Shown here: in pieces, positions 1,956 to 12,548 of the stretch
Position numbering within the stretch: the first letter of the stretch is position 1
Layout: each line of letters begins with the position of its first letter
Source of the DNA: Burkholderiales bacterium
GTDB taxonomy: Bacteria > Pseudomonadota > Gammaproteobacteria > Burkholderiales > Burkholderiaceae_C
Assembly: GCA_017307855.1 (NCBI GenBank)
Contig: JAFKGD010000007.1
Location: forward strand, 310,001-374,000
DNA length: 64,000 nucleotides
Direction: 5' to 3'
Translations under genes and position numbers: made by a program
The notes under the pieces: model-generated
Told to the model about the DNA's origin: nothing
The model's input: the letters and a program-made list of their open reading frames with translations, nothing else
The model's database searches: none

Positions 1956-2358
1956 AGCAGCTCAGGTCGACGATCCGTCGCCAGGGAGGGGCATGGGAGC
2001 AAGAGCCATGCGCGCGCCCTATGTTCCTATGGATCTCATCCCATATCAAGGAGGTCGCAGCGCGAGTTGTTGAGCATCGGCCGCTCGAGACTGGGTGCAG
2101 CCACCTGCGCTTCGAGGCCGAAAGGCCGTAGTTGACCAAAACGGGTCGTCAGTAACACCAAACAGACCGCTGAAAAATTGGTCACAACGCCGCGAAACAA
2201 CCCCTGATTTCGTGCTCGAACGAACGGAGAAACCTCTCGCGATTCGTCCGAGCAGTGCACTGCCGTGCAGTGTTTCAAAACGTTAGACTGGTGGTGAACG
2301 GCGCATCAAGTCGCCGCTGCAAGGGAATTCCATCAAATCAAGCGATCAGGGGGATGAC
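1956..2358. other. Intergenic region between TniQ gene and nuclease operon
   Basis: 403 bp separating two divergent transcription units. No open frame here shows recognisable protein features. I looked for a tnsC remnant upstream of the TniQ gene and saw none. The operon-proximal part holds an overlapping inverted repeat (2252-2272) and a strong Shine-Dalgarno sequence (AGGGGG) just before the TTG start at 2359, so the promoter of the four-gene operon should be here. Confidence 0.5.
2252..2272. promoter_or_regulatory. Candidate operator: overlapping GCAGTG/CACTGC inverted repeats
   Basis: GCAGTG-CACTGC-CGT-GCAGTG: three half-sites that form two overlapping perfect inverted repeats about 90 bp upstream of the operon start. 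The symmetry suits a dimeric repressor, for example the XRE-type protein at the left edge. That assignment is inference only. Confidence 0.3.
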
Positions 2359-3483
2359 TTGATCTCATTTTTGCATACGGCCGACTGGCAGATCGGTCGA
2401 GTGTTCGCGCAGTTTGAGACCGACGACGCGGCCGCTCTATTTGAGGCACGATTCGCTGCCGTGGAGCGCCTGGCCAGTATCGCGGCCGATAGAGGCGTGG
2501 ACGCAGTGCTGGTCGCTGGCGACGTGTTTGACGCCCAGACGGTGGCCGAGAAGACTATTCGGCGGCTGTTCAACGCCATGCAAGGCTTTACCGGGACCTG
2601 GGTCCTGATCCCGGGTAATCACGATGCTGCGCTGGCGGAGTCGGTGTGGAACCGGGCACATCGCTTGGGGGCAATCCCCGACAACGTCATCGTGTGCCTA
2701 GAGCCAAGGCCCTTTGTGGTGGCAGGCAAGTTCACATTGCTGCCGGCACCGCTGACCCAGCGCCATACCTATGCCGACCTCACCGAATGGTTCGCGACGC
2801 ACGTTCCATCGGACGACCTGCCGCGAGTCGGTCTGGCGCACGGCAGTGTGCAGGGCATCCTACCCGCAGACGTGGACTCGACCAATCCGATCGCGGCGGG
2901 CCGGGCGCAGAGCGCGGGACTGGCTTACCTGGGGCTAGGAGACTGGCACGGCACCAAGCAGGTGGATAGCAAGACCTGGTACGCCGGCACGCCGGAATCG
3001 GACCGCTTTAAAGCCAACGAGTCGGGTCAGGCACTGCTCGTGGCCATAGAGTCGACGTCACTCGAGCCTATTGTCACAGCGGTACCCACCGGAAAATTCA
3101 ACTGGCGTCAGCTCGAGCAGCATATGGCCGTCGATTCAGACGTCGACGAAGTGGTGCAAGCGTTAGACGGAGTGAGTGGCAATGATGTCCTTCACTTGCG
3201 CCTGTCCGGCACCTGCAATCTGGCGGGACACCGCAAGCTGACGGCCGCGCTCGGGGCGGCGCGCGCCAAGGCGCGGGCCATCCTGTGGAACGCTGAGGCG
3301 CTCAGGCTCGAGCCAACCGAGGAAGATATTCAAACGCTGCGTGCCGACGGCTTTGTGGGCGAGGCCCTGCAGGAGCTGCGCGAGCAGCAAGCCAGCGCAG
3401 AGCCCGAACTGGCGCGTGACGCGCTGCTAGCGCTGGCGCGGATCCTGGACGACCAAGCACCAGCGAAAGGAGCCTGCGCATGA
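2359..3483 (+). CDS. SbcD/Mre11-like metallophosphoesterase (nuclease subunit)
   Basis: 374 residues with the calcineurin-type phosphoesterase motifs in order: HTADWQIG (D9), GD (54-55), GNHD (86-89), H161 in AHGS and GDWH (194-197). This matches the Mre11/SbcD exonuclease family, which cleaves DNA ends together with an SbcC/Rad50 ATPase. Two metal-ligand positions differ from canonical SbcD: DxH is DWQ (Q11) and GHxH is GDWH (D195). The start is TTG, chosen because AGGGGG sits 5 bp upstream and the conserved HTAD motif follows at once. The stop overlaps the start of the ATPase gene (ATGA), so the two are translationally coupled. It is the first gene of the four-gene operon. An orthodox SbcD should be shorter on accessory motifs and have both histidines, so this is a divergent subfamily. 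Confidence 0.88.
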   Translation: MISFLHTADWQIGRVFAQFETDDAAALFEARFAAVERLASIAADRGVDAVLVAGDVFDAQTVAEKTIRRLFNAMQGFTGTWVLIPGNHDAALAESVWNRAHRLGAIPDNVIVCLEPRPFVVAGKFTLLPAPLTQRHTYADLTEWFATHVPSDDLPRVGLAHGSVQGILPADVDSTNPIAAGRAQSAGLAYLGLGDWHGTKQVDSKTWYAGTPESDRFKANESGQALLVAIESTSLEPIVTAVPTGKFNWRQLEQHMAVDSDVDEVVQALDGVSGNDVLHLRLSGTCNLAGHRKLTAALGAARAKARAILWNAEALRLEPTEEDIQTLRADGFVGEALQELREQQASAEPELARDALLALARILDDQAPAKGACA

Positions 3484-6155
3484 AGCTCAAGCGGGTGCGA
3501 ATCGAGAATTTCAAGCGCTTTCGGGCCCCGCTGGAGTTGTGCGACTTCGCTGACGGACTGAACCTGTTCGTCGCCCCGAACGAGTCGGGGAAGTCCACCG
3601 TAGCCGAAGCCATCCGGGCCGCGTTTTTCGAGCGGCACAAGTCGAGCGCGATCAGTGGCTTGCGTCCGTGGAGCGACAGCTCCGCCACGCCGTCTGTGGA
3701 GATCGCTTTCGCACTCGGCGGGAAACCCGCTCGGCTGAGCAAGGCGTTTCTGGGCAAGAAGCGATGCCAGCTCATCATCGATGGCAAGACGCTGGAAGGA
3801 GCAGAGGCCGAGGATCACCTGGGAGAGCTGCTGGGCTTCAGCTTCGCCGGAAAGGGCGCCAGCTCGCCCGAGCACATGGGTATCCCCGGGTTGCTCTGGA
3901 TTAAGCAGGGCACGTCGCATGAAATTGCCAAGGTCGTCGGGTTCGCAAGCGATCATCTGCGCAACGCGATGGGGGACTCCCTTGGCGAACTCGCGGCCAC
4001 AAGCGGCGATGAGGTCATCAAGGCGGTTGAGACCGAGCGCAATCAGCTGCTGACGCCGTCCACCGAGGCACCGCGCGGTGCATACGGGGAAGCGATCAAG
4101 CGCCGCACAGCGCTGCTCGAAGAGCTGCAGTTATTGCGCGTGGAGATTAACGCGTACCGAATCGCCGTGGACCGGCTGGCGGCATTGCGTCTTGATCATG
4201 GGCAAGACGGCGAGGCTCGGCCCTGGCTGACCCTGCGCGCGCAACTTGAGCAAGCGCAGGTCAAGCTGGCCGACGCGTTGGGGCTTGCCCAGCGGAGGAC
4301 CGCGCAAGAGTTGCTGCTCAAGCAGGCTTCGGCGCAGGTTGACGCCCAGCGCCAACAACTGCAGCTCATGGCACGCGACGACGACGCGGTGAAGCTGCGC
4401 GAGGAGAAGCTGGAGGCGGCGCAGGACAAGCTGGCGCAGGCCAACGGTCAGCTCCAGGCCTGGGAGCCGCGCCATGCGCAGGCTGAACACGCGAGCATGA
4501 GGGCGCGCGACCGACTGGCAGCGGCGCGCCAAGTGGCGACCTGGCAGGCCCAGGAGAAGGCGGTGACCGAGCTCGCGGCCCAAGTACAAGCCCTGAGCCG
4601 GAGTCACCGCCAAGCGCAGCTCAAGCAGGAAGAGCTAACAAGCTTGCAGGCCGAGACGCTGTCGCTCGCCATGCCCGGCGCGGAGCTCAAGCGCCTGCGC
4701 GAAGTCACGGAGAGCCTGCGCACCGCGCAGGCTCGGTTGGATGCGGTATCAACCGCGCTGGAGTTCCGCCTCCAGCCCAGCGCGAAGGTGCAGGTCGCCG
4801 GTGTCCAGGTGAATGCCACCGACCGCCTCACCGTGGTGGAGCGCACGGGCATCGACATTGAGGGGGTGGGGCGCATCACGGTGCTGCCGGGCGGTGAGGG
4901 CCTTCAAAGCCTGATTGCGGATCGTGATCAACAGCGCAAAGTCCTGGCGGAGCTGCTCCAGCGCCTGGGTGTGGCGAACTTGGCGGCTGCGGAAGAGCGT
5001 GAGCGCCAGCACGTGCAGCGCGCGGCGGAGGCCAAGGCGGCGAAATCCGTCTTGGAGGCCCACGCTCCGAAGGGGGTGGCCGCCTTGGCGGTGGACATAG
5101 CGGCGCTGTCGACCAAGCTGACGGAGGCGAAGCAAGCACTGCAGAACTTGACGGAACCTGTCGGGGCTGAAACTGCCGGCGTATCCGTGTCGCAAGCGGA
5201 ATCGGATGAATCCACGGCGAAGGTCATACTGGAAGATGCGACGTCCCAGCTGAACGACTCCAAGCTCGCGGTGAGCGAAGCGATGGCCCTGCTCAGCGTC
5301 GCGAGCGAAGAGCTGGCAGCGGCCCAGGCGACACTGGCCGACCCACTTCGCGCCAAAAGGAAAGCGGACGCCAGCCATGCCCTGACCGATGCCCTTGCGA
5401 ACGAGACCACGGCGCGGGCAGGTGTGGAAGCACTCGCCGAGCAACTGCGCACGCTCAACGTTGCACTTCTGCAGCAGGACGTCGAGCGGTTTGAGCGGAG
5501 CGCCAAGCAGCTTGAGAGCGCGTACGCCCAACGCGGGAGCGACATCATCCGGTTGGAGGCGGACCTGGAGGCCAAGGGCGCCTTGGGGCTGGAAGAGGCC
5601 GCCGCGGACAAACAGCGCGAGCTCGACCACATGGAGAGACGGTGCACCGAGCTCGAACGCCGGGCCAAGGCGCTGAGCCATCTTCTCAAGCTGCTCACAG
5701 AGAAGCGCGCCGCGCTGGCACGACGCCTGCGCGCGCCACTTCAGCGACACCTGAACCACTACCTACAGATCCTGTTCCCGGGCGCGGGCATCGAGGTGAG
5801 TGATGACCTATCACCGGGACGCATCACCCGAGTCGGCACCAACGGCGCGGAGACCGGTGATTTCGAGGAACTCAGCGTCGGGGCACGGGAGCAGATGGGT
5901 GTCGTCGCGCGGCTGGCCTACGCGGACCTTCTGCAAGAGGCTGGCAAGCCCACGTTGCTCATCCTAGACGACGCCCTGGTTCACACCGACAAAGATCGAC
6001 TGGGCCAGATGAAGCGGGTGCTCTACGACGCCGCTCAAAGACATCAGATCCTGGTGTTTAGCTGCCACCCGCACGCCTGGCAGGACCTTGGCGTTGCCGC
6101 ACGCGAGCTATCTCATGCGCCTGGCTACGGCGGCGGCGAACCCTCTACGCCGTGA
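3480..6155 (+). CDS. SbcC/Rad50-like coiled-coil ATPase without zinc hook
   Basis: 891 residues. The Walker A is APNESGKST (32-40), with Ala in the usual first Gly position. The ABC signature is ELSVGAREQ near 797-805 and Walker B is LLILDD (826-831). Long heptad-rich coiled coils lie between. A Rad50/SbcC zinc hook (CxxC) is absent: only isolated cysteines occur. Instead the middle (about 423-480) is a beta-rich, glycine-containing stretch. Rad50-family ATPases tether and gate the Mre11 nuclease. Coupled by a 4-bp overlap to the SbcD-like gene, it should form the same complex. A GTG-start nuclease gene follows after 36 bp. Confidence 0.88.
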   Translation: MKLKRVRIENFKRFRAPLELCDFADGLNLFVAPNESGKSTVAEAIRAAFFERHKSSAISGLRPWSDSSATPSVEIAFALGGKPARLSKAFLGKKRCQLIIDGKTLEGAEAEDHLGELLGFSFAGKGASSPEHMGIPGLLWIKQGTSHEIAKVVGFASDHLRNAMGDSLGELAATSGDEVIKAVETERNQLLTPSTEAPRGAYGEAIKRRTALLEELQLLRVEINAYRIAVDRLAALRLDHGQDGEARPWLTLRAQLEQAQVKLADALGLAQRRTAQELLLKQASAQVDAQRQQLQLMARDDDAVKLREEKLEAAQDKLAQANGQLQAWEPRHAQAEHASMRARDRLAAARQVATWQAQEKAVTELAAQVQALSRSHRQAQLKQEELTSLQAETLSLAMPGAELKRLREVTESLRTAQARLDAVSTALEFRLQPSAKVQVAGVQVNATDRLTVVERTGIDIEGVGRITVLPGGEGLQSLIADRDQQRKVLAELLQRLGVANLAAAEERERQHVQRAAEAKAAKSVLEAHAPKGVAALAVDIAALSTKLTEAKQALQNLTEPVGAETAGVSVSQAESDESTAKVILEDATSQLNDSKLAVSEAMALLSVASEELAAAQATLADPLRAKRKADASHALTDALANETTARAGVEALAEQLRTLNVALLQQDVERFERSAKQLESAYAQRGSDIIRLEADLEAKGALGLEEAAADKQRELDHMERRCTELERRAKALSHLLKLLTEKRAALARRLRAPLQRHLNHYLQILFPGAGIEVSDDLSPGRITRVGTNGAETGDFEELSVGAREQMGVVARLAYADLLQEAGKPTLLILDDALVHTDKDRLGQMKRVLYDAAQRHQILVFSCHPHAWQDLGVAARELSHAPGYGGGEPSTP

Positions 6156-6191
6156 GGCCGACCGCCGTTGAGCATCACCCGAGGATAGACA

Positions 6192-7427
6192 GTGAAAGAC
6201 CGCAGCGCGATCGCGACGATCAAAGGCTACTTCTACCAGTTCGACCAGACGATCGTGAGTCTGCTCGAGGCGTCCCCTCATGGCAGCGTGACGGTCGAAG
6301 GCGTGGAGGACATAGACCTGGATGATCCGGGTGAGAGCGCCTTCGTGCAGTGCAAGTACTACGAAGGCACGGAGTACAACCACTCGGTGATTAAGGACGC
6401 GGTCGTGCACATGCTGCGGCATTTCCATGCCGCGGGCTGCTCCAGAGACCAAATGTTCCGGTACCGGCTTCACGGCTATTACCAAAGCGGGCAGCACAAG
6501 CTCACGCTTCCCCTGACGGGCGACTTCGTGAAGGAACACTTTCTTACCTTCACGAAGGAAAAGAAGGTCCACAAAGTGCACGAAGAACTGGTGCTCACCG
6601 ACGAACAGCTGGCCGACTTTCTCGCGCTGCTGGACATCAACGTGAGCGCGCCGTCCTATGACGCTCAGAAGGAGACGTTGATCAAACTGATGGTGCGCGA
6701 GATCTCCGGGTGCAACAGCGATGATGCGCGGATCTTCTTCTATCCGATGGCGATCAACGTCGTTCAGGGACTCGCAATCGAAGCGGACGTGGCGCAGCGA
6801 AAGGTAACCAAGGCGCAGTTCTTGAAGGCAATCAACCGCAAGGAGGTGGTCTTCAACGCCTGGCTGAGGGATTACATGGGGCGCGAGTACTTCGCGAGGA
6901 TGGTCCGTCGAAAGTACTTCTCTCATCGCACGACTAAGCTGCCCCAGGCTTCGAGATTCTTCGTGATCGAGATGGGCGAAGAGTTCGAAGTGGCCAAGGC
7001 CAGTCGCATGCTCGCCGGGCTTGGGCGGAAGTTCTCGCACACGGAGCATATGCGGACGCCTGCTACCGATCGGTTTTGCCCCTACGTGCTGCTGCGAGGC
7101 CTGACGCCCGAACAGTTGGTTGAGCTCAAGGAGAGCCTTTGGAGGCAGGGCGTGGCCTTCATTGACGGCTATCCCTTCCACGGTTCGGCTTTCTCACCCG
7201 AGATGCTGGCGGAGCGCCCCACCAAAGAAAGACTCTGGACGCTCAAATTCGTCCCCGATGAGCACGAGCTAGCGCCGACCATGGCTGCCTGCAAAGGCTC
7301 GCTCGTCGAGGTCTACGACTTTCACCAAGGCTCGCCGTTGGACTCAGCCCTCCTGCCCAAGGGCACAGGGCTCCATTCGATCAAGAGTGACAGTGCCTAT
7401 CTGCTTCAGGAGGTCATGCAGGCATGA
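6192..7427 (+). CDS. Cap4/DUF4297-like PD-(D/E)XK endonuclease
   Basis: 411 residues. The N-terminus (about 1-120) carries a restriction-endonuclease-like core: GYFYQFDQT, then E36 and E39-D40 in VTVEGVEDID, then Q53-x-K55 in FVQCKYYEG. This Q-x-K layout is typical of the Cap4/DUF4297 dsDNA nuclease domain. The rest (120-411) I do not recognise; it may be a substrate- or HerA-binding region. The start is GTG with GAGGA six bases upstream. Its stop overlaps the HerA ATG by 4 bp, so nuclease and HerA are coupled, as in reported DUF4297-HerA antiphage pairs. The nuclease assignment rests on motif reading and not on a profile search. Confidence 0.7.
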   Translation: MKDRSAIATIKGYFYQFDQTIVSLLEASPHGSVTVEGVEDIDLDDPGESAFVQCKYYEGTEYNHSVIKDAVVHMLRHFHAAGCSRDQMFRYRLHGYYQSGQHKLTLPLTGDFVKEHFLTFTKEKKVHKVHEELVLTDEQLADFLALLDINVSAPSYDAQKETLIKLMVREISGCNSDDARIFFYPMAINVVQGLAIEADVAQRKVTKAQFLKAINRKEVVFNAWLRDYMGREYFARMVRRKYFSHRTTKLPQASRFFVIEMGEEFEVAKASRMLAGLGRKFSHTEHMRTPATDRFCPYVLLRGLTPEQLVELKESLWRQGVAFIDGYPFHGSAFSPEMLAERPTKERLWTLKFVPDEHELAPTMAACKGSLVEVYDFHQGSPLDSALLPKGTGLHSIKSDSAYLLQEVMQA

Positions 7428-9193
7428 ACGATTCCAATGACATCAAGGCCGAAGTGATTGCTGTCTTCCCGGACAAGGTGAAGATCTCGGTTGGCAACAT
7501 CTCGGCATTCGCAAACGATAAGAGCCTCAAGGTGGGCTCATATCTGCGCATCACCGATATCGAAGAATGCGCGCTCATCGCGATCATCGAGAACTTCTGC
7601 ATCGAAGTAACTGCCAGCGGCGAGCGTCGTCACCTCATCGAGGCCTTGCCGCTGGGAATCATCGCTGACGGCAAGTTCATTCGTGGCGGCGATACGCTGA
7701 CCATCCCTCCCACTGGCGTGGCGCCGGCGACGGACGAAGACATCAAGAAAATCTTCGAGGATTCGATTGAGCCGGCAAAGAAGTTCGCATTCAGCGCGCT
7801 GGTGTCCAACGAGAAGATCTCCGTCCCCGTCGACGGGGACCGGTTCTTCAACAAGCATCTTGCCGTCGTGGGTTCCACTGGCGCGGGCAAGTCGCACACC
7901 ATCGCCAAGATCATCCAGACCGCAGTGCGCGCGAAAGACGGCGATTACTCGCTGAACAACTCCCACGTCGTCATCTTCGACATCCACTCCGAGTACCGGA
8001 CGGCATTCCCCGACGCGAACTTCCTGGATGCCAGCACACTGACCTTGCCTTACTGGCTGCTCAACAGCGAAGAACTGGAGGAGGTGCTTCTGGATACGGG
8101 CGAGCGCGACAACTACAACCAATCGGCAGTGTTTCGCCATTTGGTCACGGAGAACAAGAAGCGCCACAACAAGTGCGCGAAGAACGTCTTCTACGACAGT
8201 CCTCTCAAGTTCGACATCCATGAAGTGCTGAACGCGCTGTACAACATCAAGAACGAAACCGTGAACTCGAAGAACGAGGCGCGGTACATGGTGAACGACG
8301 GCAGCTACGCGTTGCTGACTGAGGGCAAGACTGATAGTGGCCATGGGCTGCTGCTCACGGCGGATCAGCGCTTGGATCTTTACTTTTCTAAGCGACTCGA
8401 TTTTCATCCGACCAAGTCGCAAAGCATCACGGGCGGGAGCTACGCTGACAAGACACTGGACAAGTTCTTCACGCGGTTCGAGGGCAAGGTCGAGCAGGAC
8501 CGCCTGCAGTTCCTCTTCGGTCCGGCTGCGGATACAGCCACGCTGGAAGGTACTCTGATGAGCCTGATCGGCTACGGCGATACGAAGTCCAACGTCACGA
8601 TCGTCGACTTGAGCGGCGTTCCGTTTGAGGTCCTGAGCATCACCGTGTCACTGATCTCGCGGATCCTTTTCGAATATGGATATCACTACAAAGTGATGCG
8701 CACGGCGGCGAAAGAGCAGTTCAATACCGACGCGCCGCTCCTGCTCGTTTATGAGGAGGCTCACAAGTACGTGCCCAACAGCGACCTGGTACGTTTTCGC
8801 GCTTCCAAGCTCTCGATCGAGCGCATTGCAAAGGAAGGGCGCAAGTACGGCGTCACGCTGCTTCTGTCGAGTCAGCGGCCGTCAGAAATCTCCGAGACGA
8901 TCTTCTCCCAGTGCAGCAATTTCCTGGCGATGCGCTTGACCAACCCGAGCGACCAGAGTTACGTCGCCCGCCTGTTGCCTGACACCCTCGGTAACCTGTG
9001 CGACAAGTTGCCGACCCTGGGTGCAGGCGAGGCGCTTCTGATCGGTGAGTCGGTGGTGATGCCATCGTTGGTCCAGGTGCAGCGCTGCGATCCTCCACCC
9101 TCGTCGACAGATATTCCGTACTACCAGCTCTGGAAGGAAGAGTGGAAGCAACTCAACTTCGAGGGGATCAAAAAGTCGTGGCTCAAGGAATAG
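7424..9193 (+). CDS. HerA-like hexameric DNA translocase ATPase
   Basis: 589 residues. It has an N-terminal HerA/FtsK-type beta-barrel (1-100), Walker A GSTGAGKS (150-157), Walker B LLLVYEEAH (439-447) and a downstream RIAKEGRKYG...LLSSQRPSEIS segment that carries the conserved arginine and sensor region of HerA/DUF87 ATPases. In archaea HerA forms a hexameric ring that drives NurA. In bacteria HerA homologues pair with DUF4297 or Sir2 effectors in antiphage systems. Here it is the last gene of the SbcD-SbcC-nuclease operon and overlaps the nuclease gene by 4 bp, which predicts a nuclease-HerA complex. Confidence 0.88.
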   Translation: MNDSNDIKAEVIAVFPDKVKISVGNISAFANDKSLKVGSYLRITDIEECALIAIIENFCIEVTASGERRHLIEALPLGIIADGKFIRGGDTLTIPPTGVAPATDEDIKKIFEDSIEPAKKFAFSALVSNEKISVPVDGDRFFNKHLAVVGSTGAGKSHTIAKIIQTAVRAKDGDYSLNNSHVVIFDIHSEYRTAFPDANFLDASTLTLPYWLLNSEELEEVLLDTGERDNYNQSAVFRHLVTENKKRHNKCAKNVFYDSPLKFDIHEVLNALYNIKNETVNSKNEARYMVNDGSYALLTEGKTDSGHGLLLTADQRLDLYFSKRLDFHPTKSQSITGGSYADKTLDKFFTRFEGKVEQDRLQFLFGPAADTATLEGTLMSLIGYGDTKSNVTIVDLSGVPFEVLSITVSLISRILFEYGYHYKVMRTAAKEQFNTDAPLLLVYEEAHKYVPNSDLVRFRASKLSIERIAKEGRKYGVTLLLSSQRPSEISETIFSQCSNFLAMRLTNPSDQSYVARLLPDTLGNLCDKLPTLGAGEALLIGESVVMPSLVQVQRCDPPPSSTDIPYYQLWKEEWKQLNFEGIKKSWLKE

Positions 9194-9326
9194 GGGAGGC
9201 GAGGCTAACCGCCTTAACACGGCCAGACGGGTCAGCACCGGTTGCCGCGTCCAATGGTGGCTTCGCGCCAACAGCGTGAGTACGCGGGCCGAATGTGACC
9301 GGCGACACCCGCTGCGAAGCCGAAGA
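9194..9326. other. Non-coding scar between HerA gene and integrase relic
   Basis: No frame in either strand continues the integrase domain or shows another recognisable protein. The stretch looks like decayed DNA between the end of the operon and the truncated recombinase. Confidence 0.4.
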
Positions 9327-9550: not shown

Positions 9551-10444
9551 TTAGGCTTTCGCCCATTCAAGGTCTCGGATTGCGAAGCCAACAGCATGAA
9601 TGGCGAGCTCGGCGTCCTCTTCCATGATGGGTCGATAACCATTTTGGCGCTGCGCATTGCTCTTGTTCCGGCTGTGCAGCTTCGCGCACACCTTGCCCAG
9701 GTGACCCACGCAGATTCGCTCATAGGGTGCACCCTCTATAGTCGCAGAGACTTGCGCAAGCTCCCTGCCAATGATCGTGTCGGGCGAGCCACTCTGAGCA
9801 AGCCATGAGGAGAGAATCGCCTGCATGGCATCGCGGCAGTTGTCAACGACAGAGCCAGGTGACTCCTTGAAGGCGGAGTCGAGGACGCGCGCGATTGCCT
9901 GAGCGACCGCAGGTCGGAGCTGCTCGTCGATCTTGTTGAGGTCGAGCTCAGGCAGGATGCTGAATGCTGACAACGCTTTAAGCGTCACCATCACGGCGCC
10001 GCTGTATAGCGCCTCCGTTTGCACGACGCGCCACGCTGACGCTGCGCGCGACGACCCTAGCGCCAAAACCGAACCTTGGCCCTGGTTCGGCCGCTGTAGG
10101 ATTTCGAAGCAAGACGTATAGACGAACAGCGACTTGTAGGTTGCTTTGTCGTAGCCTGGAATCAAGCCGCGGTCATGGGGGTGGGCGGAAACGATAAGCC
10201 TCGAAGGCTGAGCACCGCTGGTTTGCTGATAGAGGCGGCCTCTGCGCGTTCGGCTTACCGGGTCATACGAATCCTCTCGGAACACGAGACCAAAAGCCTC
10301 CGAAGGACTCGGGAGCGCCTTCCAATCGTCTGCAGTATCGATGAACTTCGCATGCGTCACCGTTGGCATCGGCATGGCGGGAATGTCGGGGTTCCCCGTG
10401 CCTTCAAAGACCAGTCCTGTGTGTTGCTCAATTCCTAAATGCAT
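9551..10444 (-). CDS. Uncharacterised island protein next to the transposon end
   Basis: 297 residues, not recognised. The N-terminal half is mixed alpha/beta with no signal peptide or membrane span. The C-terminal half is helical and alanine-rich (about 160-297) and ends DLEWAKA. A good ribosome-binding site (AGGGG, six bases before the ATG) supports the start. The helical C-terminus, with a central NCRDAMQAIL and a basic KLHSRNKSN loop, is loosely reminiscent of abortive-infection C-terminal domains, but no RxxxxH HEPN motif is present and I do not assign a function. It is the gene nearest the right end of the Tn7-like element and may be a stand-alone cargo gene. Confidence 0.6.
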   Translation of the reverse strand: MHLGIEQHTGLVFEGTGNPDIPAMPMPTVTHAKFIDTADDWKALPSPSEAFGLVFREDSYDPVSRTRRGRLYQQTSGAQPSRLIVSAHPHDRGLIPGYDKATYKSLFVYTSCFEILQRPNQGQGSVLALGSSRAASAWRVVQTEALYSGAVMVTLKALSAFSILPELDLNKIDEQLRPAVAQAIARVLDSAFKESPGSVVDNCRDAMQAILSSWLAQSGSPDTIIGRELAQVSATIEGAPYERICVGHLGKVCAKLHSRNKSNAQRQNGYRPIMEEDAELAIHAVGFAIRDLEWAKA

Positions 10445-10633: not shown

Positions 10634-10699
10634 GTTTTCGACTTTATTGTTTTGTTTTCGACTCTATTTCGCTGTTTTCGACTTTATTTGTCAGAAACA
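10634..10699. repeat. Tn7-like right end with three TnsB-site-like repeats
   Basis: GTTTTCGACTTTATT (10634-10648), GTTTTCGACTCTATT (10654-10668) and GTTTTCGACTTTATT (10674-10688) are spaced exactly 20 bp apart. The terminus is at 10697-10699 (ACA, or TGT read toward the island). On the glmS strand each repeat reads AATARAGTCGAAAAC, close to the Tn7 TnsB-site core AATAAAGTCTTAAAC. The AT-rich block contrasts with its GC-rich surroundings and encodes the aberrant GlmS tail. Confidence 0.8.
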
Positions 10700-12548
10700 C
10701 CAGATTGCGCGGCTTATCCACATCCGTCCCCCTCGCCAGCGCCGTGTGATACGCCAGCAACTGCAGCGGCACCACGTGCAGCAGCGGCGACAGGGCGCCG
10801 TAGTGCTCGGGCATTCGGATCACGCGCACGCCTTCGCTGCTCTCGATGCGCGAGTCGCCGTCGGCCAGCACGTAGAGCAGGCCGCCGCGCGCGCGCACTT
10901 CCTGCATGTTGCTCTTGAGCTTTTCCAGCAGCGTGTCGTTGGGCGCGACGACGACGACGGGCATCTGCGCGGTGACTAGCGCCAGCGGACCGTGCTTGAG
11001 TTCGCCGGCCGGATACGCCTCGGCATGGATGTAGCTGATTTCCTTGAGCTTGAGCGCGCCTTCGAGCGCGATCGGGTAATGCAACCCCCGACCGAGGAAC
11101 AGCGCGTTTTCCATGCGCGCGAAGTCTTCGGCCCAGCTGATGACCTGGGGCTCCAGTGCCAGTACGGCCTGCAGCGCCACCGGCAAGTGACGCATGGCCT
11201 TGAGGTGGGCGGCCTCCTCTTCGGGCGAGAGCCGCCCCTTGGCCTGCGCGAGCGCCAGGGTCAGCAGGAACAGCCCGGCCAGTTGCGTGGTGAAGGCCTT
11301 GGTCGAAGCCACGCCGATCTCCACCCCCGCGCGCGTGACGTAGGCCAGCTTGCATTCGCGCACCATGGCGCTGGTGGCCACGTTGCAGATGGTCAGCGTC
11401 TGCTCCATGCCCAGACTGCGCGCGTGCTTGAGCGCGGCCAGCGTGTCGGCCGTCTCGCCGCTCTGGCTGATGGTGACGACCAGCGTGCGCGGATCGGGCA
11501 CCGACTCGCGGTAGCGGTATTCGCTGGCGATCTCGACCTGCGTGGGGATCTTCGCGATGCCCTCGAGCCAGTACTTGGCCGTGCAGCCGCTGTAGTAGCT
11601 GGTGCCGCAGGCCAGGATCAGCACGCGGTCGATCTCCTTGAAGACGCGCCAGGCGGCGGCGCCTTCGCCGTCGAACAGCTCGGGCACGATGCCTTCGACG
11701 CCTTCGAGCGTGTCGGCGATGGCGCGCGGTTGCTCGAAGATTTCCTTCTGCATGTAGTGGCGGTAGGGGCCCAGCTCGGCCGCGCCGCTGTGGGCCAGCA
11801 CGGTCTTGACCGGACGCTGTTTCGCATCCAGCGGCTTGTGCGCGCGATCGACGATCCAGTAGCGGCCCAATTGCAGGTCGACCACGTCGCCCTCTTCCAG
11901 ATAGACGATCTGGTCGGTCACGCCGGCCAGCGCCATGGCGTCGCTGGCCAGGAAGTGCTCGCTGCCTTCCTTGCCCACGCCCAGGATCAGCGGCGAGCCC
12001 GCGCGCGCCCCCACCACGCGGTGCGGCTCGTCCTTGTGGAACACGGCGATGGCATAGGCGCCGTGCAGTTGCACGATGGCGGCCTTCACGGCTTCGAACA
12101 GGTCGCCGTCGTAGAGTGAATCGACCAGGTGCGCGATGACCTCGGTGTCGGTCTGGCTGGCGAACACGTAGCCCCTGGCCTGCAGCGCGGCGCGCAGTTC
12201 TTCGTGGTTCTCGATGATGCCGTTGTGCACCAGGGCCACGCGGCCGGCACGCGCGTCCGCGTCGGCCCCCGGGCCATGGCTGAAATGCGGATGCGCGTTG
12301 TACACGGCCGGCGCGCCGTGCGTGGCCCAGCGCGTGTGGGCGATGCCGGTGGCGCCTTCCACGTGATCGGCCGCCACCTGTGCCAGCAGTTCGGCCACGC
12401 GCGAGGTGCTGCGCGCGCGCTGCAGCCCGCCGCCGGCATGCACGGCCACGCCGCACGAGTCATAGCCGCGGTATTCGAGCCGCTGCAGGCCCTGCACGAG
12501 GATGGGAACGATGTTGCGCGTGGAAACCGCGCCGACGATGCCGCACAT
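10644..12548 (-). CDS. glmS: Glutamine-fructose-6-phosphate aminotransferase with transposon-altered C-terminus
   Basis: Makes glucosamine-6-phosphate from fructose-6-phosphate and glutamine, the first step to UDP-GlcNAc. 634 residues: an N-terminal Ntn glutaminase (Cys2, MCGIVGAVS) followed by two SIS isomerase domains. The conserved C-terminal region reads [10 protein letters not shown] and should continue AKSVTVE. Here it continues [18 protein letters not shown], encoded by the transposon end. The lost tail contains the lysine equivalent to E. coli Lys603, which forms the Schiff base with the sugar, and the loop that covers the active site. The enzyme may be impaired or dead unless another glmS copy exists. 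It is divergent from an AsnC-type regulator. glmU lies 1.9 kb from the start of glmS. Confidence 0.93.

Follow-up and report, generated by a model that had tools for sequence, protein, structure and literature searches.

A predicted DUF4297-HerA anti-phage pair preceded by a diverged SbcD/SbcC-like pair on a Tn7-like element of a Burkholderiales bacterium

Two gene pairs in one operon

The stretch of DNA analysed here, called the window, is 64,000 nucleotides from a Burkholderiales bacterium (contig JAFKGD010000007.1, positions 310,001 to 374,000), and the subject of this study is an operon of four genes near its left end. All four open reading frames (ORFs) lie on the + strand, with a 4-bp overlap within each of two gene pairs (3480-3483 and 7424-7427) and a gap of 36 bp between the pairs (genes 2/3). 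Genes 1 and 2 are predicted to encode a diverged SbcD/SbcC-like pair, and genes 3 and 4 are predicted members of the known anti-phage pair DUF4297-HerA. The original prediction, made from the letters alone, had proposed the same four identities, the common orientation and the two overlaps, and the ORF and family searches agree with it. The operon is composed of the following features.

2267-2358, + strand: probable promoter or leader of the cassette, 92 bp 5' of sbcD, conserved in the other beta (betaproteobacterial) four-gene loci
2359-3483, + strand: gene 1, predicted SbcD/Mre11-like metallophosphoesterase, TTG start, 374 amino acids (PF00149, motif table)
3480-6155, + strand: gene 2, predicted SbcC/Rad50-like coiled-coil ABC ATPase, 891 amino acids (PF13476, SbcC alignment)
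6192-7427, + strand: gene 3, predicted DUF4297 (Cap4-like PD-(D/E)XK) anti-phage nuclease, GTG start, 411 amino acids (NF042945)
7424-9193, + strand: gene 4, predicted HerA DNA translocase, 589 amino acids (NF042944, PF01935)
6179-9199, + strand: two-gene sub-cassette common to Ideonella oryzae (L004), blastn identity 81.6% over 3025 bp

The second pair is recognized by curated models. Gene 3 scores 476 bits against the NCBIfam model DUF4297_antiphage (NF042945), over its cut-off of 300, and gene 4 scores 931 bits against HerA_antiphage_2 (NF042944), over its cut-off of 850, which upholds the earlier assignment to a known anti-phage pair. PADLOC gives matches to DUF4297 (4.5e-127) for gene 3 and to HerA (4.6e-271) for gene 4, and in the PDB the corresponding matches are DUF4297 of 8xav (2.3e-69) and HerA of 8xau (1.1e-182). 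Gene 4 is also matched in Pfam by DUF87/HerA (PF01935, 4.5e-32); gene 3 has no Pfam match at E 0.1. The conserved residues in the DUF4297 alignment are E36, E39, D40, D42, Q53 and K55, and in the HerA alignment the Walker A motif (GSTGAGKS) and the EE of Walker B are invariant, save for one Walker A position.

Regarding the first pair, Pfam matches gene 1 to Metallophos (PF00149, 1.9e-9) and gene 2 to AAA_23 (PF13476, 1.4e-10), and gene 1 reaches 48.9 bits against the NCBIfam SbcD model TIGR00619, under the cut-off of 77.65. The canonical Mre11 ligands lie in the motifs DxH and GHxH, for which E. coli SbcD was aligned for comparison. In the window SbcD, motif I is altered to DWQ and motif V to GDWH, so that two ligand positions are changed. 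Among the 36 SbcD rows, the final residue of motif I is Q in 28, as in DWQ, and H in seven (L095, L096, L098, L099, L100, L112 and L120), and motif I is missing from one (L104); motif V is GDWH in 35, the exception being YhaO of L120 with GHVH. The window SbcC retains Walker A, the signature and Walker B, the invariant columns of its alignment, and on these motifs the ATPase looks active. It contains no CxxC zinc hook; CxxC is present in 3/36 SbcC rows, each time in the overlong start of an ORF, ahead of Walker A. Thus, the proposed likeness to Mre11/SbcD and Rad50/SbcC stands, but the window SbcD is not a canonical Mre11. Against PADLOC, genes 1 and 2 gave no model beyond weak similarity, and the structure models, computed from two-row alignments, have a mean predicted local distance difference test (pLDDT) score of 44 for SbcD and 48 for SbcC.

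The guanine and cytosine (GC) content of whole genes is 0.64 and 0.66 for genes 1 and 2 versus 0.59 and 0.57 for genes 3 and 4. A separate origin of the two pairs was considered on this basis and dropped, because third-position GC (0.74 and 0.79 versus 0.79 and 0.79) fails to separate them. Signal scans were uninformative: a consensus promoter scan gave 0 sites versus 1.3 expected, and terminator-like sites numbered 9 versus 6.2 (standard deviation 2.2) in shuffles.

Recurrence and surroundings of the four-gene set

All four window proteins are found at 100% identity in two Hydrogenophaga records (L001, L002). A peptide-pattern scan using one genome per species gave 58 DUF4297 loci, a sample of those in existence, and SbcCD adjoins DUF4297 in three of them: two copies of the window's four genes and Paraburkholderia dinghuensis. 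Another beta set, on a plasmid of Burkholderia aenigmatica, has SbcCD beside DUF4297-HerA, and three alphaproteobacterial plasmids (Polymorphobacter megasporae, Sphingobium RAC03 and Sphingomonas panacis) carry four-gene sets in the same order. All six sets, alpha and beta, run SbcD, SbcC, DUF4297, HerA on one strand, and 35-85 bp separate the two pairs. DUF4297 and HerA of the alpha sets have diverged, with about 26% and 42% identity to the window, and those of RAC03 fall below the NCBIfam cut-offs (DUF4297 151 bits against 300, HerA 582 bits against 850). PDB chain 8ziq resembles, by eye, a DUF4297-group protein of Agrobacterium pAt, and the alpha DUF4297/HerA appear to belong to the group with this solved member.

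The set is a cassette with defined edges. When the window is compared with P. dinghuensis and the B. aenigmatica plasmid (L003, L059), blastn gives one block, 2267-9200, at about 80% identity, reaching 92 bp ahead of sbcD and 7 bp past herA; the flanks differ among the loci. RAC03 and Polymorphobacter show DNA homology over all four genes in two pieces, with a 191-bp piece elsewhere. RAC03 and a Sphingomonas plasmid on which the pair occurs without DUF4297 share the SbcD-SbcC block and two short pieces of an integrase region. Plasmid records with both alpha families number at least 3 versus 0.03 expected at random, and the resulting p of 3e-6 is too optimistic because the plasmids are related.

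Trees were built for SbcC (36 rows), SbcD (36 rows) and HerA (65 rows). The SbcC tree places the beta sets together with same-class pairs that stand alone and with two beta plasmids, and it places the alpha sets with stand-alone pairs on alpha plasmids; the SbcD tree is concordant. For HerA, two-gene systems surround the beta sets, and the alpha sets lie next to the two-gene Agrobacterium. Grouping every four-gene member into a single clade is rejected by the approximately unbiased (AU) test, at p 3.6e-6 for SbcC, p 0.0025 for SbcD and, with L120 included, p 1.35e-5 for HerA; a HerA clade of the three beta sets alone is not rejected (p 0.85). The rejection of a single clade argues that the pairing of SbcCD with DUF4297-HerA was made more than once, in two separate assemblies at the least and probably in three, and is also compatible with one very old four-gene ancestor followed by many losses. 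The trees omit the window copies (L001, L002, L068, L114), loci with partial or broken genes (L010, L045, L049, L050, L052, L054, L057) and short loci (L069-L084, L115, L116, L118, L119), which apart from L084 were retrieved again at greater length. Long branches were omitted from the AU tests (L093, L094, L097 and L101 for SbcC; L094, L097, L104 and L120 for SbcD; L046, L047, L103 and L125 for HerA).

The probable third assembly, with another SbcCD family, occurs in Methylotuvimicrobium alcaliphilum (L120), where DUF4297 and HerA are followed by YhaO and YhaN, in reversed order and with canonical SbcD motifs. The same YhaO-YhaN module follows brxL of BREX by about 130 bp in two Methylomonas koyamae plasmids, and the module of one of them (L131) matches that of Methylotuvimicrobium at 80% DNA identity from the module's own edge. 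In these plasmids (L131 6769-13718, L134 6767-13723), an AAA ATPase comes after YhaO-YhaN, together with a helicase in L134.

Other partners of the pair were seen in 19 SbcC-family plasmid loci (L059-L063, L066, L067, L102-L113), which were picked from match lists, not at random, and for which the defence-library scans covered some of the neighbours. DUF4297-HerA is next to the pair in four, a same-strand PDC-S06 in two, a TM0106 nuclease in two (near-identical) and none in 11. The TM0106-family RecB-like nuclease/helicase gene lies 3 bp before SbcD-SbcC in the Sphingobium plasmids L107 and L113 (2592-9631), and this locus adjoins a WYL gene. The PADLOC candidate PDC-S06 (E about 1e-130) stands beside SbcD-SbcC in L063 (10828-13149) and L067 (4461-6797), downstream in Maritalea and upstream in Sphingopyxis. 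In Agrobacterium pAt (L064, 6800-11019), a RelA/SpoT-domain gene is located 82 bp upstream of DUF4297-HerA and is possibly another optional partner at the SbcCD position.

As to the mobile setting, which the original prediction had also named, the gene content indicates that the four genes ride in a Tn7-like element beside glmS, with TnsA, TnsC-like, TniQ and TnsD genes present. The following features flank the operon.

213-1955, - strand: predicted TnsD/TniQ-type target selector (PF15978 5.8e-49, PF06527 3e-6)
9551-10444, - strand: gene of 297 amino acids between herA and glmS, probably a further cargo gene, without a Pfam, PADLOC or NCBIfam match
10634-10688: three 15-bp repeats with a 20-bp period, putative right transposon end, overlapping the 3' end of the glmS ORF
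10644-12548: gene with SIS and glutamine amidotransferase domains (Pfam), to the right of the cassette and read as glmS from these domains

TnsA (PF08722), a TnsC-like AAA_22 protein and a second TniQ lie to the left of the window. An 807-residue ORF at the TnsB position (L085 15064-17487, + strand) overlaps TnsA and has no Pfam or NCBIfam match; it may be a diverged TnsB. The exact repeat pattern of 10634-10688 occurs nowhere else in the window's own genome, and the repeats are the probable right end; no left end was found within the 40 kb searched. Since the repeats lie within the 3' end of the glmS ORF, the last GlmS residues, compared with the usual GlmS end, are seemingly encoded by them.

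Possible coupling of the two pairs

Our preferred reading, which we hold with a probability of about 0.45, is that the operon represents a DUF4297-HerA anti-phage system to which an SbcD/SbcC-like module was added, both acting on the same DNA. It starts from the gene identities, the conserved catalytic motifs in DUF4297, in HerA and in the ATPase SbcC, the bounded cassette in differing flanks and its repeated separate assembly. Where phage DNA enters or replicates, the SbcCD-like proteins would recognize its ends, whether free, blocked or hairpin, or open them, and in doing so would load the HerA motor together with the DUF4297 nuclease or trigger their action. HerA-DUF4297 would then thread and cut double-stranded DNA (dsDNA) and halt the infection, probably via cell death. 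The two pairs would thus be coupled within the operon; the signal would be DNA ends, and the outcome in the host would be abortive infection. Precedents for a role in sensing ends or structures are HamB, which recognizes 3' single-stranded DNA ends (PMC12198126), and Lamassu, in some systems of which a Cap4 nuclease accompanies a Rad50-like protein (PMC10586767). In Sulfolobus, Rad50 and Mre11 co-precipitate with HerA, even when the proteins are purified, and NurA does not (PMC2288612). The YhaO/YhaN cousin behind BREX also supports this reading. Relatives of DUF4297-HerA are reported to form a complex of about 1 MDa that hydrolyses ATP and cleaves dsDNA promiscuously, with abortive infection (PMC11291478); they are toxic and constitutively active in vitro, and the phage trigger is stated as unresolved (PMC11291478, PMC12198126). 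The earlier label of an end-resection machine is not borne out by these accounts.

Several observations weigh against such coupling. First, SbcCD is not adjacent in 55/58 DUF4297 loci, although seven of the 55 are too short or partial for full judgement: L043 has no upstream DNA, L045 has 873 bp upstream, and L010, L049, L052, L054 and L057 lack a HerA match, four of them ending at or just after DUF4297. Conversely, DUF4297-HerA stands beside 0/15 other sampled SbcC loci, these being the non-self places with flanks out of 16 (L084, a C-terminal fragment, was left out). Both counts place the SbcCD-like module as optional and outside the core DUF4297-HerA system, which protects without SbcCD in published work (PMC11291478). 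In addition, window HerA and DUF4297 are equal in length to those of the two-gene relative L004, so no dedicated docking part is visible. Lastly, the SbcD phosphoesterase may lack nuclease activity, because two of its ligand positions are changed.

In a scan of 398 Pseudomonadota genomes, the SbcC family occurs in 16 and DUF4297 in three, and both only in the window's own. DUF4297 is found in 1/385 alphaproteobacterial genomes (with G115 counted by an inferred class) and in 3/399 genomes of the window's order, and SbcCD is absent beside DUF4297 in the three non-self loci retrieved from these scans and in G949 (L123-L126). In the pattern scans of viral contigs, there was one DUF4297 relative, without an SbcD or SbcC match, and no SbcC relative; in phages, one HerA-like match is annotated as a terminase. 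Ten genes upstream of two-gene systems were considered as overlooked SbcCD pairs and none qualifies (valyl-tRNA synthetase, DNA polymerase I, a DEAD helicase, DUF2130 and the rest without clear matches).

The original prediction had raised the question of accidental adjacency, here within a defence island. The rarity of co-occurrence (3/58 and 0/15) is what an accident would give, yet the homology that ends exactly at the cassette in different flanks, together with the repeated assembly, makes this explanation highly improbable, and we strongly disfavour it. The adjacency of the SbcCD-like pair and DUF4297-HerA looks selected.

Shared expression could still suffice. The SbcCD-like pair may by itself attack or process foreign DNA, with DUF4297-HerA as a separate effector, two independent modules in one transcript that benefit from being co-expressed without acting together. 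Each pair is common alone, and the SbcCD-like pair also stands beside PDC-S06 and the TM0106 nuclease, with YhaO/YhaN after BREX. This explains less easily why the six sets keep one order, one strand and a tight spacing, and why HerA systems were chosen repeatedly, as in archaeal operons; we regard it as an unlikely but serious contender. Less likely still is that the SbcCD-like pair guards the host, restraining a toxic DUF4297-HerA or mending host breaks, so that the cassette is tolerated, for instance where a host lacks an SbcCD of its own. The toxicity and promiscuity reported in PMC11291478 fit this idea, and TIGR00619 finds no other match in the window's own genome, where 13/14 control genomes were matched; against it, 55/58 DUF4297 loci show no SbcCD pair. 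Finally, the operon might be a mobile general repair pair served by the HerA pair as in archaea, with no role in defence. It resembles the archaeal mre11-rad50-herA-nurA operon (PMC2288612), and related SbcCD-like pairs lie on chromosomes; however, DUF4297 and HerA here are anti-phage families rather than NurA and archaeal HerA, and the cassette sits on mobile DNA, so plain repair is improbable.

If the preferred reading of an end-sensing module is correct, the recurrent, cassette-bounded SbcCD-like partner is a candidate for the signal, namely DNA ends, that switches on DUF4297-HerA. A wider and rather doubtful joint claim is that the archaeal Mre11-Rad50-HerA-nuclease machine has been rebuilt again and again in defence operons of bacteria. 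The SbcCD-like and YhaO-YhaN modules would then be plug-in end sensors or openers, here the missing trigger of DUF4297-HerA and elsewhere partners of BREX, the TM0106 RecB-like nuclease and PDC-S06. Were this true for BREX and others, a DNA-end-handling module would be a component shared across bacterial immunity, with the archaeal repair operon and Lamassu as parallels.

Comparison with known systems

Among the matches listed from the open-licence literature, the available text holds no description of the four-gene set, in line with the original view that it is undescribed, and no single paper with both DUF4297 and SbcC turned up. One paper treats the archaeal operon and the two-gene bacterial systems separately and names both DUF4297 and Mre11-Rad50 (PMC12977600, in its accessible sections), and the BREX paper does not mention SbcC, Mre11 or calcineurin in the part available (PMC12839542).

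Genes 1 and 2 share with SbcCD/Mre11-Rad50 and YhaO/YhaN a metallophosphoesterase next to a coiled-coil ABC ATPase with a 4-bp overlap, whereas they differ from SbcCD/Mre11-Rad50 by a score below the SbcD cut-off, the DWQ and GDWH motifs and the lack of a CxxC hook. Lamassu (LmuA/LmuB/LmuC) follows a similar logic, in that a nuclease of Cap4/DUF4297 type accompanies a Rad50-like protein, but the window has a phosphoesterase and HerA in place of LmuC. Membership in Lamassu was rejected, with gene 3 scoring 422 bits against DUF4297 versus 39.8 bits against LmuA; the window SbcC matches LmuB weakly (36.9 bits, first 50 residues), and LmuC had no match among the six proteins scanned.

The archaeal mre11-rad50-herA-nurA operon likewise unites four equivalent protein kinds in one operon. 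In the window, however, DUF4297 takes the place of NurA, the SbcCD is a diverged bacterial one, HerA is of the anti-phage family and the setting is mobile. With respect to named systems, genes 3 and 4 correspond to DUF4297-HerA, and the searches gave no named match for the whole set. DUF4297-HerA is HerA/DUF4297 in PADLOC and 'Gao_Her_DUF' in DefenseFinder. The two window genes qualify by curated cut-offs, are adjacent with a 4-bp overlap and have solved relatives; whereas the described system consists of two genes, the window adds an SbcD/SbcC-like pair in front.

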